From Desulfobacterales bacterium (GTDB lineage Bacteria; Desulfobacterota; Desulfobacteria; Desulfobacterales; JAFDCJ01): a DNA stretch of 8,971 nt. Below the pieces are notes generated by a model. That model saw nothing but the letters and a program-made list of their open reading frames with translations, did not search any database and was not told the origin of the DNA. The position numbers and the translations under genes were made by a program. The DNA is taken from positions 3,523,214 to 3,532,184 of the forward strand of contig CP070771.1 in assembly GCA_020345785.1 (NCBI GenBank), read 5' to 3'. Shown piece by piece: positions 124 through 4,559 of the stretch (position 1 is its first letter; every line of letters begins with the position of its first letter).

Positions 124-615
124 TCAGTGTTTAGTGGTCACCGTTTGATATATAAATCCAATCGTATGCAGCAACATAAGGGCGGCGCCAACCGGTACGG
201 CCAAATAGGGAACGGACATCGACACGCGCAATGCAGGGCTGATCTGGGCCCGCGTGATCGCCACAAGTTGGATCCCACCCCATAAAATGACCGTTAAAAT
301 GACAGCCACCGATATCAGGGCAACAATTGTAAACACCCGACGCAGCGCCGGTGGCATGCGCTCCACTATGATGGTCACGGCAATGTGCTGGCCGCGTTTG
401 ACAGCCACGGCCGATCCTAAAAGTGAGGACCACACCAGACAGTAGCGGGCAAATTCCTCGGTCCAGAACAGGGGGAAATTAAGAAGGTAACGAAAGATAA
501 CCTGCAGAAAAACAACTACCGCCATCGCCGAAAGCACGGTGACAAGAATAACTTCAGTCATGCGGTTCAGGAAATCGCTTATTCGCTGCAAGGTGTTAGC
601 CATAATCTGCATCAT
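124..615 (-). CDS. dctQ: TRAP transporter small permease (DctQ family)
   Basis: This is the small membrane subunit of a tripartite ATP-independent periplasmic (TRAP) transporter, which sits in the inner membrane with the large permease DctM. The 163-residue protein has four hydrophobic segments (about 22-41, 53-72, 93-117 and 134-157), the normal DctQ topology and size. It carries the family-type stretch FRYLLNFPLFWTEEFARY (41-58) followed by a hydrophobic run and VKRGQHI (72-78). I place the start at 615 because GGAG lies nine bases upstream. The frame also has an ATG at 630, which would add MELES, and another at 603. The gene lies downstream of dctP on the same strand, separated by a GC-rich hairpin and a 113-bp inverted-repeat element whose end overlaps the possible start sites. 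No DctM follows within the window. Family assignment is firm; substrate is unknown. Confidence 0.9.
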   Translation of the reverse strand: MMQIMANTLQRISDFLNRMTEVILVTVLSAMAVVVFLQVIFRYLLNFPLFWTEEFARYCLVWSSLLGSAVAVKRGQHIAVTIIVERMPPALRRVFTIVALISVAVILTVILWGGIQLVAITRAQISPALRVSMSVPYLAVPVGAALMLLHTIGFIYQTVTTKH

Positions 616-624
616 CGACTCTAA

Positions 625-737
625 CTCCATTCATAAGCCACCGGCTGTGGCGGTGAGAACTGAAAGGTTTTACCGTTGCGGCGAGCTTATTTTTCGGTGG
701 TCCAAACTTAAAAGATGCCGCTGGATTATGAATGGAG
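625..737. repeat. TIR-bounded repeat element, copy 1
   Basis: This 113-bp element is bounded by CTCCATTCATAAGCCACCGGC on the left and, as its complement, on the right; the 21-bp arms match at 19 positions. It shares blocks with the copy at 4390-4506 in the same order and orientation: the left arm, GGCTGTG, AAAGGTTTTACC, CGGCG, TGGTCCAAACTTAA, GATGCCG and TTATGAATGGAGAT. No transposase is encoded and no target-site duplication is obvious, although both copies are preceded by TAA. It lies between dctP and dctQ. Read along the minus strand, its terminal ATGGAG supplies either the dctQ start codon or its Shine-Dalgarno. It resembles MITE or ERIC-like intergenic repeats in design, but I do not recognise the family. 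Confidence 0.85.
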
Positions 738-747
738 ATCAGGAAAA

Positions 748-791
748 CACACTGTGTGACACCGGGCGAAGACCCCGCCGGCGGCGGGGCC
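748..791 (-). terminator. Stable GC hairpin between dctP and dctQ (attenuating or mRNA-protecting structure)
   Basis: CCCCGCC (773-779) and GGCGGGG (783-789) form a perfect seven-pair stem with a GGC loop just after the dctP stop codon. Further along the minus strand, a CACAC-A-GTGTG palindrome (748-758) is followed by TTTT. The GC stem itself lacks an immediate T-run, so it may stabilise the dctP transcript 3' end rather than terminate. Such hairpins are common after binding-protein genes and keep binding-protein levels above permease levels; that role here is inferred. Confidence 0.55.
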
Positions 792-807
792 TCTGGGTGT
801 GGATCCT

Positions 808-1794
808 TTACTTTGTGGCCCTGATCTGCTCAAGCACCGTCTGCCAGCCCGGATACTTTTTACCGAACTGGTCATAGACCGGTGCCATGGCCTCGACAAA
901 AACGGCTTTATCCACTTCACTGACAACCATTCCCTGTTCCTTGAGAGCTGCGAGCTGCTTGGCTTCATTATCGCGGATGAGTTTGCGTTCGTAGGCGGCA
1001 GCTTTCAGGGCGGCGTCCAGCACTGCCTGTTGATGCTGGGGTTTCAGCGCGTTGAATTTTTTAAGACTCATCGACAAAGGCGCCGGGGAATAGAAATGAC
1101 CGGTCAAACTCAGATACCTCTGGACCTCGCTGAGTTTGAAGGCAAAGACGATGGCCACCGGATTCTCCTGTCCGTCAATCACGCCGGTTTGCAGGGAAGT
1201 GTAGACTTCACCCCAGCTCATCGGCACCGCCTGAGCACCCAGCTGACGAACCGAGGCCAAATGAACCGGATTCTCCATGGTTCGAAATTTAAGGCCTTGG
1301 AAATCTTCCGGCTTCGTCAGTGAGCGCTTGGAATTGGTAAAGTTGCGAAAACCGTTTTCAAAAAATGCCAATCCTTTGATGTTGGCTTTTTCGAGCCCGT
1401 CCAGCAGACTGCGTCCGACGGGACCATCCAGGACTTTGTCCACATGTTCATTACTGGTGAAAAGAAAAGGCAGATCAACAACGCCCATGTCTTCGCTGAA
1501 ATTAGACACCGGTCCGGTCGCCGTCACCGCCAAATCGATGGTGCCTAACTGCAGACCTTCCAACAATTCGCGTTCGCCCTTGCCGAGTTGGCCGCCACCA
1601 TAGACTTTGATGACCACCTCACCGTTGGTCCCTTCTTCGACCAGGCGAGCGAACTCCTGGGCACCCCTGGTGTAAGCATGATGGTCGGGTGTCACCGTTG
1701 CCAATTTCAGCGTCGTTTTAGCCTGGGCCGGAAGGAAGGTTAGCAGTGCGATCAAAGCGGCCAAAACAAACGGGCTAAACTTGAAGCGTTTCAT
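808..1794 (-). CDS. dctP: TRAP transporter solute-binding protein (DctP family)
   Basis: This is the periplasmic substrate-capturing subunit of a TRAP transporter, delivering small organic anions to DctQM. The 328-residue product has a classic Sec signal peptide: MKRFKF, a hydrophobic core, and likely cleavage after AQA at residue 25. The mature part shows DctP hallmarks: LATVTPDHHAYTRGAQEFARLV near the start, YGGGQLGKGERELLEGLQLG (65-84), the GLKFRTMEN motif (167-175) with Arg171 as the probable carboxylate-pairing arginine, and SWGEVYTSLQTGVIDGQENP (193-212). I chose the start at 1794 because AAAAGGAGG lies just upstream; an in-frame ATG at 1836 would add 14 polar residues before the signal peptide and has no such support. 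It is the first gene of the minus-strand transport operon and is divergent from the GntR regulator. Family is certain; the ligand (a dicarboxylate, keto acid, amino-acid derivative or similar) cannot be fixed from sequence. Confidence 0.95.
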   Translation of the reverse strand: MKRFKFSPFVLAALIALLTFLPAQAKTTLKLATVTPDHHAYTRGAQEFARLVEEGTNGEVVIKVYGGGQLGKGERELLEGLQLGTIDLAVTATGPVSNFSEDMGVVDLPFLFTSNEHVDKVLDGPVGRSLLDGLEKANIKGLAFFENGFRNFTNSKRSLTKPEDFQGLKFRTMENPVHLASVRQLGAQAVPMSWGEVYTSLQTGVIDGQENPVAIVFAFKLSEVQRYLSLTGHFYSPAPLSMSLKKFNALKPQHQQAVLDAALKAAAYERKLIRDNEAKQLAALKEQGMVVSEVDKAVFVEAMAPVYDQFGKKYPGWQTVLEQIRATK

Positions 1795-1808
1795 GGTGGT
1801 TCCTCCTT
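1795..1808 (-). promoter_or_regulatory. Strong Shine-Dalgarno fixing the dctP start
   Basis: Read on the minus strand, AAAAGGAGG is followed by AACCACC and then ATG at 1794. This near-perfect anti-16S match at normal spacing selects the start at 1794 over the in-frame ATG at 1836. Confidence 0.8.
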
Positions 1809-1855
1809 TTGGTTGGTGGGTTGATCGGAGTGACAAAAATGTGAAGCGTTTGAAA

Positions 1856-1907
1856 GGTGAATTGCACCGTCTAATAGAAAAAATACAGATGCATTTCGCC
1901 CTATCAA
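1856..1907 (-). promoter_or_regulatory. Possible dctP promoter with a small operator-like palindrome
   Basis: On the minus strand, TTGATA (1907-1902) and TATTTT (1885-1880) are 16 bases apart and make a passable sigma70-like promoter about 90 bases before dctP. Just downstream of it is GGTG-AATTG-CACC (1856-1868), a short dyad of the size bound by GntR-type dimers. Both matches are weak and could be chance in AT-rich DNA. Confidence 0.3.
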
Positions 1908-2028
1908 ATCAGAGACTAATTAATCCGCCCTGAAAAATAAACGAACCGGTGAAATTAAACCGATTTGGCATCTAAAATCTGTTTAATATAATTTGAAACT
2001 GCCTCGGGCGGATTAATTAGCAAATGCA
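1890..2028. repeat. Long nested inverted repeat in the dctP/gntR intergenic region
   Basis: CTAATTAATCCGCCC (1916-1930) and GGGCGGATTAATTAG (2006-2020) are perfect 15-bp complements separated by 75 bases. Inside them ATTAAAC-C-GATTT (1954-1966) pairs with AAATC-T-GTTTAAT (1975-1987): 12 of 13 positions, with an 8-base loop. Outside them TGCATTT (1890-1896) matches AAATGCA (2022-2028). The whole could form a cruciform or a long RNA hairpin, or be the remnant of a small mobile repeat. It has no sequence similarity I can see to the 625-737/4390-4506 element. Confidence 0.7.
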
Positions 2029-2128
2029 CTTTTCGATTTAATATAAAAGTAGCCGTATAAAAGTCAAGGGAAGATAGTTTAAATGATTGGGCGAAGCCGG
2101 TCCTTTGAATGTCCGTGTGATGTTTTCG

Positions 2129-2166
2129 CAAAATTTTGTTGACATGCACTAAAAAAATCATTTAAA
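2129..2166 (+). promoter_or_regulatory. Probable sigma70 promoter of the GntR gene
   Basis: A consensus -35 TTGACA (2139-2144) is followed after 16 bases by TTTAAA (2161-2166), a four-of-six -10. The perfect palindrome CAAAATTTTG (2129-2138) abuts the -35. Transcription would start near 2173, inside the AGTTTAACT repeats, leaving a leader of about 110 bases before the regulator gene. Confidence 0.5.
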
Positions 2167-2171
2167 AGGTC

Positions 2172-2200
2172 AAACAGTTTAACTGTTTATTAGTTTAACT
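2172..2200. promoter_or_regulatory. Tandem palindromes, candidate operator of the GntR regulator
   Basis: AAACAGTT-T-AACTGTTT (2172-2188) is a perfect dyad with 8-bp arms. Its core AGTTTAACT (2176-2184), itself palindromic, recurs at 2192-2200, sixteen bases on. A near copy AGTTTAAAT is at 2076-2084, exactly 100 bases upstream of the first. The pair sits at the predicted transcription start of the downstream regulator, the usual place for an autorepressor site. GntR binding is inferred; the palindromes are directly visible. Confidence 0.5.
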
Positions 2201-2280
2201 TTTATATTTTTTGATGCCATGCGATCGCTGAACCATCAAACGTTACTCAATTTTCAAAATACACTTTCATAGGGATAAAT

Positions 2281-3009
2281 ATGCAACTTAAATTTGAAAA
2301 AATGAAACCGAGTCGATCTTTCCAACATGTTGCCGATCAAATCCAGGCGGCCATTCTCGATGGCAGTCTCAAGTCCGGAGACAAGCTTCCCGCCGAGATG
2401 AAATTAAAAGATATGTTTGACACCAGCCGAGGCACCATCCGCGAAGCCCTGCGGGTTCTTGAGCAAAAAGGTTTGATCAACATTAAAACTGGAGTCAGCG
2501 GCGGTGCCATCGTCAAGGAAATCAGTACGCAGCCGATAACCGAAGGCCTTGATCTTTTAATGCAGTACCAAAAGGTTTCGGTAGAGCATCTCTCTGAATT
2601 TCGCCACGAGATCGAGGGTACGGTCACCGCATTGGCGGCCGAAAGGGCCACTAAAAAAGATATTCAAAGGCTGAAAAAAATTCTGGCAGAAGCCCGCAAG
2701 CAGCTTGAAAAGGGAATCAACGGCCGTAATGATTTTTTTAGAACAGATGTCAAGCTGCATATCGAACTGGCTAAAATCGCAAAAAACCCCATTTTCGAAG
2801 CGGTTCTTCAAATGGTCCATGAAAACATTCTCGGACGGTGGCTCAAGTTCTCTCCGACCGATGAAAATGTTTTCCAAGAAAATTACGAAGATCTCTGTGA
2901 CATTGTGGCCGCCGTGGAGCGTGGAGAATCCAACAAGGCCCGTGTTTTAGCCCATGACCATGTCAGCCGATTTTACCGCTATATGGAGCGAGGCAAAGGA
3001 AAGGTTTAA
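2281..3009 (+). CDS. GntR family transcriptional regulator, FadR-type with FCD domain
   Basis: This is a DNA-binding regulator of the GntR superfamily, FadR-like branch, 242 residues. The N-terminal winged helix-turn-helix spans about 12-80, with typical text: VADQIQAAILDGSLKSGDKLPAE (17-39), then SRGTIREALRVLEQKGLI (49-66) as the recognition helix and wing. The C-terminal all-helical FCD ligand domain spans about 103-232. In it Asp156 and His160 (DVKLH) and a histidine in AHDH (225/227) fit the metal-ligand pattern. The usual middle histidine is absent around EDLCDIVAAV (203-212), so metal binding may be altered or lost. AGGG lies six bases before the ATG. The gene is divergent from dctP and upstream of rocD, so it probably controls one or both in response to a small carboxylate. 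FCD effectors vary widely, so no gene symbol is given. Confidence 0.93.
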   Translation: MQLKFEKMKPSRSFQHVADQIQAAILDGSLKSGDKLPAEMKLKDMFDTSRGTIREALRVLEQKGLINIKTGVSGGAIVKEISTQPITEGLDLLMQYQKVSVEHLSEFRHEIEGTVTALAAERATKKDIQRLKKILAEARKQLEKGINGRNDFFRTDVKLHIELAKIAKNPIFEAVLQMVHENILGRWLKFSPTDENVFQENYEDLCDIVAAVERGESNKARVLAHDHVSRFYRYMERGKGKV

Positions 3010-3028
3010 AAGCAGTAAAGAATTCTGT

Positions 3029-3080
3029 CTCCGCTTCCGGCCCGCAGGGCTCACAACAGCGCGGAGGGATGGCCGGGTTT
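3029..3080 (+). promoter_or_regulatory. Interlocking hairpins between the GntR gene and rocD (attenuator-like)
   Basis: Two stems cannot both form simply. CTCCGC (3029-3034) pairs with GCGGAG (3061-3066) and encloses the small hairpin GCCC-GCA-GGGC (3040-3050). CCGGCC (3037-3042) pairs with GGCCGG (3071-3076) and is followed by GTTTTAAAAG, a weak terminator-like tail. The arms interleave, so they form either a pseudoknot or alternative folds. This may tune read-through into the aminotransferase gene; function is inferred. Confidence 0.35.
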
Positions 3081-3113
3081 TAAAAGCTATCATCTATTAC
3101 CGAGGCGATAAGA

Positions 3114-4313
3114 ATGGATTCCTGTGAATATATTAGAATCGAGGAGCAATATGGCGCCCACAATTACCGGCCTTTGGATGTCGTATTAAGCCGCGGTCAG
3201 GGTGTCTGGGTCTGGGATGTGGACGGCAACAAATATCTGGATTGCCTGTCTGCCTATTCCGCAGTTAACCAGGGACATTGCCATCCAAAAATCATGCAGG
3301 CATTTATGGATCAGGCTCGGAAGCTGACCCTGACATCACGGGCGTTTCGTAATGATCAACTCTGCCTCCTTTATAAGGAGGTTTGCGACCTGACCCGCTC
3401 CCATAAGATGCTGCCGATGAACAGCGGCGCCGAGGCTGTGGAGACTGCCCTCAAAACGGTGCGTAAGTGGGGCTATACTGTGAAAGGCGTTCCAGAGGAT
3501 CAGGCTGAAATCATTGTGTGTGAAAACAATTTTCATGGCCGGACCATCTCCATCGTCAGCTTCAGTACGGATTCGAATTCGCGCAGCGGGTTCGGTCCCT
3601 TCACACCGGGGTTCAAGGTGATTCCTTTCGGTAATTTACAGGCCCTTGAAGAGGCGATAACGCCCAACACCGTCGCTTTCCTTGTGGAACCGATTCAAGG
3701 AGAGGCCGGGGTGATCATCCCCCCTGCCGGGTACCTCAAGCAGGCCAGAGATATTTGTTTAACGCACCGTGTTATCCTGGTCCTGGATGAAATCCAAACC
3801 GGTTTAGGGCGCACCGGCAAACTGCTGGCAGAGGAGCATGAGGGGATTGAGGCGGATTTGACATGCATCGGCAAAGCCCTTTCCGGCGGCTTTTATCCGG
3901 TGTCCGCTGTTTTATCCAATACCGAAGTCATGAACGTCCTGCAGCCCGGCGAACACGGTTCGACCTTCGGCGGAAATCCGCTGGCATGCGCGATTGCCCG
4001 CGCAGCTTTGAAGGTGCTGGTGGAAGAGGGACTCATCGAAAACTCGGCATCAATGGGCGCCTATTTTTTGGAAGGTCTTCGACAGATTTCAAATCCTCAG
4101 GTCAGGGAGGTACGGGGAAAGGGTTTGATGATTGGTCTGGAATTTTATCCGGAAGCCGGCGGCGCCAGACAATACTGCGAAAAACTAAAAGAAAATGGGT
4201 TGCTGTGCAAGGAAACCCATGAGCATATCATTCGCTTCGCGCCGCCTTTGGTCATTACCAAGGAACAGGTCGATTGGGCCTTGGAAAAAATTTACAACGC
4301 AATTAATGCCTAA
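3114..4313 (+). CDS. rocD: Ornithine aminotransferase (ornithine--oxo-acid transaminase)
   Basis: This is a PLP-dependent class III aminotransferase of 399 residues, the normal length for bacterial OAT (EC 2.6.1.13). It converts L-ornithine and 2-oxoglutarate into glutamate-5-semialdehyde and glutamate, linking arginine/ornithine breakdown to proline and glutamate. Diagnostic stretches run in order: [16 protein letters not shown] (13-28), [14 protein letters not shown] (45-58), [12 protein letters not shown] (103-114) for cofactor phosphate binding, ENNFHGRT (137-144), EPIQGEAGV (192-200), [13 protein letters not shown] (224-236) with the PLP-contacting Asp225, and GKALSGG with Schiff-base Lys254. 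[13 protein letters not shown] (281-293) and the late segment [20 protein letters not shown] are OAT-specific in style. The start follows GAGGCGATAAG. It lies 104 bases after the regulator gene on the same strand. A related omega-aminotransferase specificity is possible but less likely given how closely the motifs match OAT. Confidence 0.92.
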
Positions 4314-4389
4314 AAGGTGATTAAATTGGCTCCGTTACCGGTTCTGGTGGTAAAACCGTTTGAGAAGACGTTTGACGCTTGAAATGTAA
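4314..4389. other. Short intergenic stretch after rocD
   Basis: This holds no gene. CGGTT (4339-4343) can pair with AACCG (4354-4358) and is followed by TTTG, at best a weak terminator. GGTAAAACC (4349-4357) is the exact complement of GGTTTTACC inside the repeat element just downstream (4435-4443), which could allow a long-range stem. I see no convincing promoter. Confidence 0.3.
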
Positions 4390-4506
4390 CTCCATTCATA
4401 AGCCACCCCGACCTATCGGGCTGTGAATTGAAAAGGTTTTACCATTACGGCGGATGCATGTTTCGATGGTCCAAACTTAACCGATGCCGGTGGCTTATGA
4501 ATGGAG
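4390..4506. repeat. TIR-bounded repeat element, copy 2
   Basis: This is the second, better-preserved copy of the 625-737 element. Its 117 bp are bounded by a perfect 18-bp inverted repeat (CTCCATTCATAAGCCACC at 4390-4407, complement at 4489-4506). Compared with copy 1 it carries an extra small hairpin, CCCGA-CCTA-TCGGG (4407-4420), next to the left arm and lacks a GCGGTG-like segment. In the core, ACCAT (4441-4445) pairs with ATGGT (4466-4470). The equivalent positions in copy 1 (ACCGT 672-676, GTGGT 697-701) still pair through G-T wobbles. An open frame runs through it into the binding-protein gene but is not its coding start. Confidence 0.88.
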
Positions 4507-4559
4507 ATTGCAACGAAAAATCGGACGGGACATATAACATTTTGAAAGGAGGATACGCT

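Follow-up and report, generated by a model that had tools for sequence, protein, structure and literature searches.

Elements of the IS200 type (IS200/IS605, with the single-tyrosine or Y1 transposase TnpA) classically have no terminal inverted repeats, according to the passages cited (PMC2817692). The palindrome-associated transposable elements (PATEs) of Haloquadratum walsbyi are too short to encode a transposase, make no target duplication, have near-terminal palindromes like those of IS605-type transposons and, in some cases, arose by deletion of the core to give forms consisting of the termini only, as the source describes them in the sections cited (PMC3119063). Also reported there are the SMR-A small mobile repeats of Haloquadratum, which are about 110 bp long, carry prominent inverted terminal repeats, show no target duplications and reach up to 54 copies per genome (PMC3119063). 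Here, we analyze a bacterial palindromic repeat, from now on referred to as module I, that is present in two copies within an 8971-base stretch of DNA from a Desulfobacterales bacterium (contig CP070771.1; the whole stretch is called the window). We consider it quite probable that this repeat derives from an IS200/IS605 element and is non-autonomous, resembling PATEs except for its long inverted arms.

An earlier note on this DNA, made from the sequence alone, had described two related palindromic copies of about 115 bp, one of them with arms perfect over 18 bp, and both points were borne out. Positions 622-740 and 4387-4509 of the window are two copies of one palindromic repeat with arms of 18-21 bp (Table 1). 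Their first 21 nt are identical letter for letter (622-642 and 4387-4407, TAACTCCATTCATAAGCCACC) and further on they are 83% identical across 77 nt (663-739 versus 4432-4508), the inner hairpin stem of copy 2 being built of bases unlike those of copy 1 with pairing retained. When folded as single strands, both copies gave z-scores of -4.48 to -5.73 on both strands, with 0 of 200 shuffles as good in each of the four tests. A profile built from 77 copies, both window copies included, covers each of the two end to end, and the conserved unit begins at TAAC, 3 nt ahead of where the earlier note had placed it. Chance resemblance of the two copies can be discounted because a BLAST search with copy 2 finds full-length relatives in other genomes, down to an E-value (E) of 8e-26.

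Copies are present in relatives of the host. The copy 2 query matched 10 of 389 genomes in the order of G003, a Desulfobacteraceae genome, and module I itself is found in nine of these, the tenth (G179, locus L090) having a left-end-like core only. Matches numbered 45 in G175 (40 of 93 candidates scored), 32 in G206 (40 of 43), 5 in G153 and 2 in G159, counts in which a few matches represent one arm alone or the palindrome read on its opposite strand; the proposal of a family with many copies therefore holds for some relatives, namely the first two of these genomes, both drafts. A covariance model of 63 copies yielded 101, 39, 10 and 9 matches in G175, G206, G153 and G084, respectively (reverse-strand matches of the same palindrome included, 150 candidates scored per genome), none in the other four of the eight genomes of this family and one match each in two of six genomes in the family of G159. 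Gene neighbors could be placed with a simple open reading frame (ORF) caller for 71 of 81 full module I copies, 70 of which are intergenic, and the orientation of copies relative to their neighbors is without bias (20 ++, 22 --, 11 +-, 17 -+ and 1 inside an ORF). The 63 aligned copies are 118-124 nt long and non-coding, with no transposase gene inside, in agreement with the suggestion that movement would be possible only in trans. Likewise, the statement that the repeat matches no named family stands: an Rfam covariance search of the window gave 0 matches at E up to 1 and literature searches turned up nothing relevant. Viruses and plasmids contained no DNA match to the repeat, and an exact core pattern gave 0 matches in genome contigs. 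Relatives were also reached via a neighbor protein of the window; the 80 loci found in this way (1.33 Mb) contained only two matches, of 14 and 16 nt, and a search of 12 genomes from those loci returned one weak match (L081 in G004), representing a left-end-like core and not module I.

Downstream of module I, the genomes of relatives often have two further palindromic repeats, module II (161 nt) and module III (84 nt), and the ends of these arrays link the repeat to IS200 elements. A whole module I copy searched against 395 genomes of the phylum matched eight; G175 matches at full length, and outside it nine places in seven genomes each match query positions about 9-57 only. These nine places were chosen by the left-end match itself, module III matches were not part of that choice, and the module III profile was built before any of these loci was fetched. 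Five of the nine lie just upstream of an IS200-type tnpA gene, three of them complete and two cut by contig ends. The complete downstream ORFs (L369, L372 and L375) encode IS200/IS605 transposases (NCBIfam NF033573, 133-140 bits at a cut-off of 55; Pfam Y1_Tnp, 119-128 bits), and the PDB relatives of the L369 protein include the ISHp608 transposase. In L370 and L376, the first 77 and 60 codons are 68% and 70% identical to the L369 TnpA before the contig ends. For L373 and L377, the contig ends too early to judge tnpA; L371 has both ends and no tnpA, and L374 has neither. In L369 (E 4.5e-11) and L372 (E 5.5e-8), the module III profile matches where tnpA stops, and L371 has such a match at its other end (E 5.4e-13); all three are on the same strand as the left end, and the part of module III found after tnpA in L369 and L372 is its right half. 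On these sequence comparisons, module I is taken to carry a left end of the IS200 type and module III a right end of that type, a homology that we count as established.

Set side by side, the left ends have in common a sequence resembling CCACC-hairpin-GAG..TTGAAAAGGTTnTACC. Common to the right ends are a GGCCCC hairpin, CCTCATACC, another hairpin and a GGTnGCTGATT-like sequence, with drift in the distant members. L373 and L377 are two copies in one genome (G508) whose DNA is unrelated up to TAACTC and identical after it over the stretch compared, and this IS200-like left end therefore starts at the same letters as module I; in L375, where tnpA is complete, the left end contains TTTAACTCGAA at the corresponding place. 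An IS200 element on a Desulfosarcina ovata plasmid, picked by protein similarity alone, has module III just downstream (E 1.2e-6) and a module I match upstream at the right place that falls short of significance (E 0.4). Matches at four further plasmid IS200 loci were weak, the best being E 0.0008 for module I (Xenorhabdus, upstream of tnpA) and E 0.026 for module III, and viral contigs scanned with TnpA contained one distant locus whose ends had no match at E up to 1. The likeness to miniature inverted-repeat transposable elements (MITEs) or enterobacterial repetitive intergenic consensus (ERIC) repeats drawn by the earlier note implies recognition through the terminal repeats. This analogy is incomplete: the evidence indicates an IS200/IS605 (Y1, HUH) origin instead, because the subterminal hairpin and tail are those of IS200 left ends located beside tnpA genes elsewhere in the phylum. 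Two genomes, G034 (L371) and G179 (L090), have a left-end-like core followed by the same unrelated spacer (ATAAAAGACTATAAATCAGACAGG..), with the L371 right end 235 nt on; they apparently represent a second IS200-derived family without tnpA.

After removal of sequence duplicates, 182 arrays were counted, some of them cut by contig ends: I (73), III (52), I-III (20), I-II-III (16), I-II (7), II (7), II-III (4) and one each of I-I, III inside II and two III copies facing in opposite directions. Of 50 multi-module arrays, 47 keep to a single order and strand (I-III, I-II-III, I-II or II-III). Divergence of modules I and II is strongly correlated across arrays, and this is seen within G175 alone (Mantel r 0.845, p 0.0002, n = 19); the corresponding correlations are 0.39 for II and III (p 0.016, n = 14) and 0.56 for I and III in arrays without II (p 0.043, n = 7). 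Given this fixed order and correlated divergence of its modules, the I-II-III array looks like a unit of amplification. One locus (L240, 1574-1716) has a module III copy within a module II copy, with a few II bases apparently missing, and module III may also insert by itself. Two chimeric or minimal remnants were noted as well, one in which the left end of I overlaps the right half of III (L338, 1499-1543) and one consisting of the arms of I without the middle (L328, 84-132).

Movement is indicated by comparison of sites. One G206 copy sits between two convergent genes, and the same place in G175, G218 and G153 is a short spacer, an empty site of the kind that the earlier note had proposed to look for, with ends that are not exact to the base. 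Within G175, two solo copies have cores that are 99% identical and flanks that are unrelated, and there are 12 pairs at 93% or more among 46 solo copies. Orthologous stretches met by chance also differ in the presence of elements, but divergence of their spacers obscures the ends. Around 47 solo I copies, 16 I-II-III arrays and 16 I-III arrays, direct repeats, counted at lengths of 4-9 bp, show no excess; a TA duplication would be indistinguishable from the terminal TA. The tetranucleotide T-N-A-C might be the target. Insertion into host hairpins, considered as the flanks of several copies seemed mutually complementary, was rejected: the observed score was 8.28 versus 8.54 (standard deviation 0.30) with flanks re-dealt for 46 solo I copies and 8.98 versus 8.69 (standard deviation 0.30) for 44 solo III copies.

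The left edge of module I is sharp, reading T-N-A-C-T-C with almost no information ahead of it. The first two positions are T in 95 and A in 79 of 103 copies, and the last two T in 72 and A in 71 of 81. Across 63 copies, 87.8% of arm cells are paired versus 82.7 +/- 0.5% with partners re-dealt, and 59 arm cells are changed on both sides versus 26.3 +/- 3.1; arm and hairpin pairs were specified by hand, and kinship of the copies, in which both arms are inherited together, inflates these covariation counts. Three main arm types, CTCAATT, CTCCATT and CTCCCTT, are mostly matched by their complements (AATTGAG, AATGGAG and AAGGGAG), and double changes seen in single copies also keep the pairing. The inner hairpin varies, with pairing retained in 85.2% of cells. 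The arm covariation is compatible with a maintained hairpin. In L154 (15952-16078), the first ~25 bases of a module I copy are directly repeated, as by slippage or nested insertion.

We propose that the 5' half of module I retains an IS200 left end, comprising the terminal stretch, the subterminal recognition hairpin and the conserved tail. The 3' arm closes the module into one long palindrome and is probably its own right end. The fuller form found in relatives would consist of a left end (I), a spacer (II) and a right end (III) without a transposase gene. An IS200-type TnpA, a single-tyrosine HUH nuclease, could then act in trans, recognizing the hairpin on single-stranded DNA and cutting at the left flank (T-N-A-C) and at the right end, after which the single strand would be pasted elsewhere without target duplication. 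Compared by eye, the 3' arm (GCCGGTGGCTTATGAATT) seems to resemble the tail of IS200 right ends, a likeness also suggested for the right arm of copy 1 (717-737), and in a solo copy both ends may be contained in a single hairpin. Carried further, a solo module I might be a minimal transposon of a new kind, a hairpin of ~120 nt in which an IS200 left end makes up the left strand and the complementary right arm has turned into the right end, such that TnpA needs only one long palindrome; this is possible, with our judgment leaning against it. If it is true, solo module I looks like a MITE yet would move as single-stranded DNA, with arms that pair while changing.

Likeness to IS200-type elements, which extends from Desulfobacterota members to a more distant ISDha13-like element in Xenorhabdus, lies in the left-end core before tnpA and the right half of module III after it, in the same order and on the same strand, as well as in one left end that starts at the same TAACTC and in the absence of 4-9 bp target duplications around module I. 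The modules differ in having no transposase gene and in the extra outer arms that make each a long palindrome. The BOX elements of pneumococcus consist of boxA, boxB and boxC modules in fixed order, as in I-II-III, whereas here each module is a full palindrome; to our knowledge, no IS200 end is known in BOX elements. Repetitive extragenic palindromic (REP) sequences and bacterial interspersed mosaic elements (BIMEs) with their REP-associated tyrosine transposases (RAYTs) are likewise intergenic palindromes tied to Y1 transposases and forming mosaic arrays, but their units are far shorter and a RAYT takes the place of the IS200 TnpA in the accounts cited (PMC2817692, PMC3733652). The I-II-III arrays fit the description of PATEs given in the sections cited (PMC3119063); PATEs are archaeal and module I is bacterial, and the two are likened by that description and not by sequence. 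Solo module I has the same outward design as SMR-A (PMC3119063). However, mobilization of SMR-A is called enigmatic and the repeats are said there to be unrelated to known transposons, whereas module I holds an IS200 left end. SMR-A elements insert into the near-terminal palindromes of other elements (PMC3119063), whereas here one III lies in a II and no general rule is seen.

A candidate enzyme was sought in carrier genomes. Y1 matches numbered 9, 7 and 3 in the drafts of G175, G206 and G084 (one under the Pfam cut-off), and modules near these 19 loci are represented by three weak matches only (E 0.07-0.46); a RAYT flanked by the repeat was found at 0 of the 19. A transposase flanked by the same outer arms, as envisaged by the earlier note, was not seen in five genomes: with up to 1 mismatch, no gene enclosed by facing arm copies 0.5-5 kb apart was seen by eye among the 67 places listed for G206, G084, G153 and G159 and the 100 listed of 134 places in G175. 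Two Y1 loci, L351 in G206 (1352-1387 and 2393-2428) and L357 in G175 (885-905 and 1900-1920), have frames of 320-330 aa and inverted repeats ~1 kb apart (GGGGTCAAGTCTTC type), which are not modules I-III.

Several observations weigh against an IS200/IS605 origin. The module III profile has no match in L375 despite its complete tnpA, the outer arms are not common to most of the IS200 left ends examined, and 0 of the 19 Y1 loci is flanked by modules I-III. Solo module I has terminal inverted repeats, of which classical IS200 elements have none in the passages cited (PMC2817692), and PATEs, too, are described as devoid of them (PMC3119063), against arms of 18-21 bp here; we hold it less likely that solo copies are PATEs for this reason. 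RNAalifold returned no consensus structure for the 63 copies, although the hand-specified pairs covary. The empty-site comparison for G206 is inexact, with about 30 more nt differing in the filled genome, and at this site the spacers of the orthologues G002 and G084 are longer and of a different sequence. Around solo III copies, 5-bp direct repeats number 11 versus 6.3 in shuffles, 1.5% of which are as high.

Other origins of the repeat were weighed against the same data. A classical MITE of a TA-targeting DDE transposase (IS630/Tc1-mariner type), in which the arms TAACTC..GAGTTA would be terminal inverted repeats with a TA duplication, is in line with the long arms, with TA being common at both ends and with the lack of a larger duplication, which a 2-bp TA duplication would satisfy. 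However, 24 of 103 copies lack A at position 2, having G, T or C instead, the two ends of the I-II-III arrays, which diversified as units, do not form an inverted repeat, no gene was enclosed by facing arms at the places listed in the five genomes, and the IS200 left-end and right-end matches would be left unexplained; we regard this origin as unlikely. Even less likely in our view is a REP/BIME-like repeat moved by a RAYT. It would agree with palindromic, intergenic repeats present in high copy and mosaic arrays, and Y1 proteins in frames of about 320-340 aa do occur in G175 and G206. Yet matches to modules I, II and III near the 19 Y1 loci are no more than weak, the tnpA genes beside the left-end core score 133-140 bits as IS200/IS605 versus 25-35 bits as REP_Tyr_transpos (cut-off 80), and units of about 120 nt compare with 20-40 bp for REPs as given in the source cited (PMC3733652).

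That the arrays are three unrelated palindromic repeats stacked by independent insertion is very improbable: I and III often stand alone (73 and 52 of the 182 arrays) and the III within a II of L240 would fit, but the fixed order and strand in 47 of 50 multi-module arrays, the divergence correlated between modules within one genome and the match of the right half of III to sequence after tnpA in L369 and L372 all argue otherwise. The least credible of the alternatives is a cis-acting RNA or operator common to two operons, such as sites for the neighboring FadR-type GntR regulator. The strong fold on both strands, the covarying arms and the location of both window copies between genes of apparent operons would be accounted for, but the dozens of copies that lie, in either orientation, next to a variety of genes, the lack of an Rfam match and the presence or absence of the repeat at an orthologous site would not. 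The derivation from an IS200/IS605 element remains the reading that we prefer.

From left to right, the window encodes a TRAP transporter pair (dctQ/dctP, minus strand), a FadR-type GntR regulator, a class-III aminotransferase, a periplasmic binding protein, an NhaC-type antiporter and an FAD-binding protein. The few named close relatives of the aminotransferase are from Desulfobacterales, Desulfonema and Deltaproteobacteria. The start of dctQ is ambiguous (window 612-630), one candidate ATG (630) falling within the arm of copy 1, and the element may have supplied or displaced it. Between dctP and the divergent gene of the GntR-type regulator lies a perfect 15-nt inverted repeat (1916-1930 and 2006-2020, CTAATTAATCCGCCC and GGGCGGATTAATTAG, 75 nt apart), a candidate operator or hairpin.

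Table 1 Module I copies and their parts in the window
Feature	Coordinates	Strand	Remarks
Module I copy 1	622..740	+	Between dctP and dctQ of the minus-strand TRAP operon; profile positions 1-119 at 622-739, 95.5 bits (profile includes copy 1)
Copy 1 left arm	625..645	+	90% complementary to 717-737 over 21 nt
Copy 1 right arm	717..737	+	Pairs with 625-645
IS200-left-end-like core of copy 1	634..674	+	Subterminal hairpin 639-655, tail GAGAACTGAAAGGTTTTACC; model positions about 13-57, the part common to IS200 left ends beside tnpA
Module I copy 2	4387..4509	+	Between class-III aminotransferase and periplasmic binding protein genes (both +); profile positions 1-119 at 4387-4508, 103.8 bits (profile includes copy 2)
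Copy 2 left arm	4390..4407	+	Perfect 18-nt inverted repeat with 4489-4506
Copy 2 right arm	4489..4506	+	Perfect 18-nt inverted repeat with 4390-4407
IS200-left-end-like core of copy 2	4399..4443	+	Hairpin 4407-4420, tail TGTGAATTGAAAAGGTTTTACC

Other elements were met in the loci of relatives. An Rfam search of the loci of five relatives identified domains D1-D4 of a group II intron in L084 (1978-2151; RF02001, 61 bits), about 100 nt past an I-II-III array, and two further matches far under their gathering scores. The downstream flank of L122 (query 192-304) belongs to another dispersed repeat of the GGTTGGGTTAAGC..CCCAACC type, with >20 matches in G175 and some elsewhere in the family, which is not one of modules I-III.

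A small repeat whose inverted arms are long is usually classed as a MITE of a DDE transposon, and here a MITE-like design hides an IS200 left end. The arrays suggest a possible route to such a repeat, in which an IS200 element would have lost tnpA, each of its ends would have been elaborated into a palindrome and the left module would have spread by itself. If this is true, it would provide a testable source of movement for palindromic repeats without a matching transposase, and the single-palindrome design considered for solo copies, if true, could also explain the haloarchaeal small mobile repeats whose movement was called enigmatic. The repeat also extends the range of mobile DNA recorded from these Desulfobacterota genomes, being a family of a kind for which literature searches showed no description.

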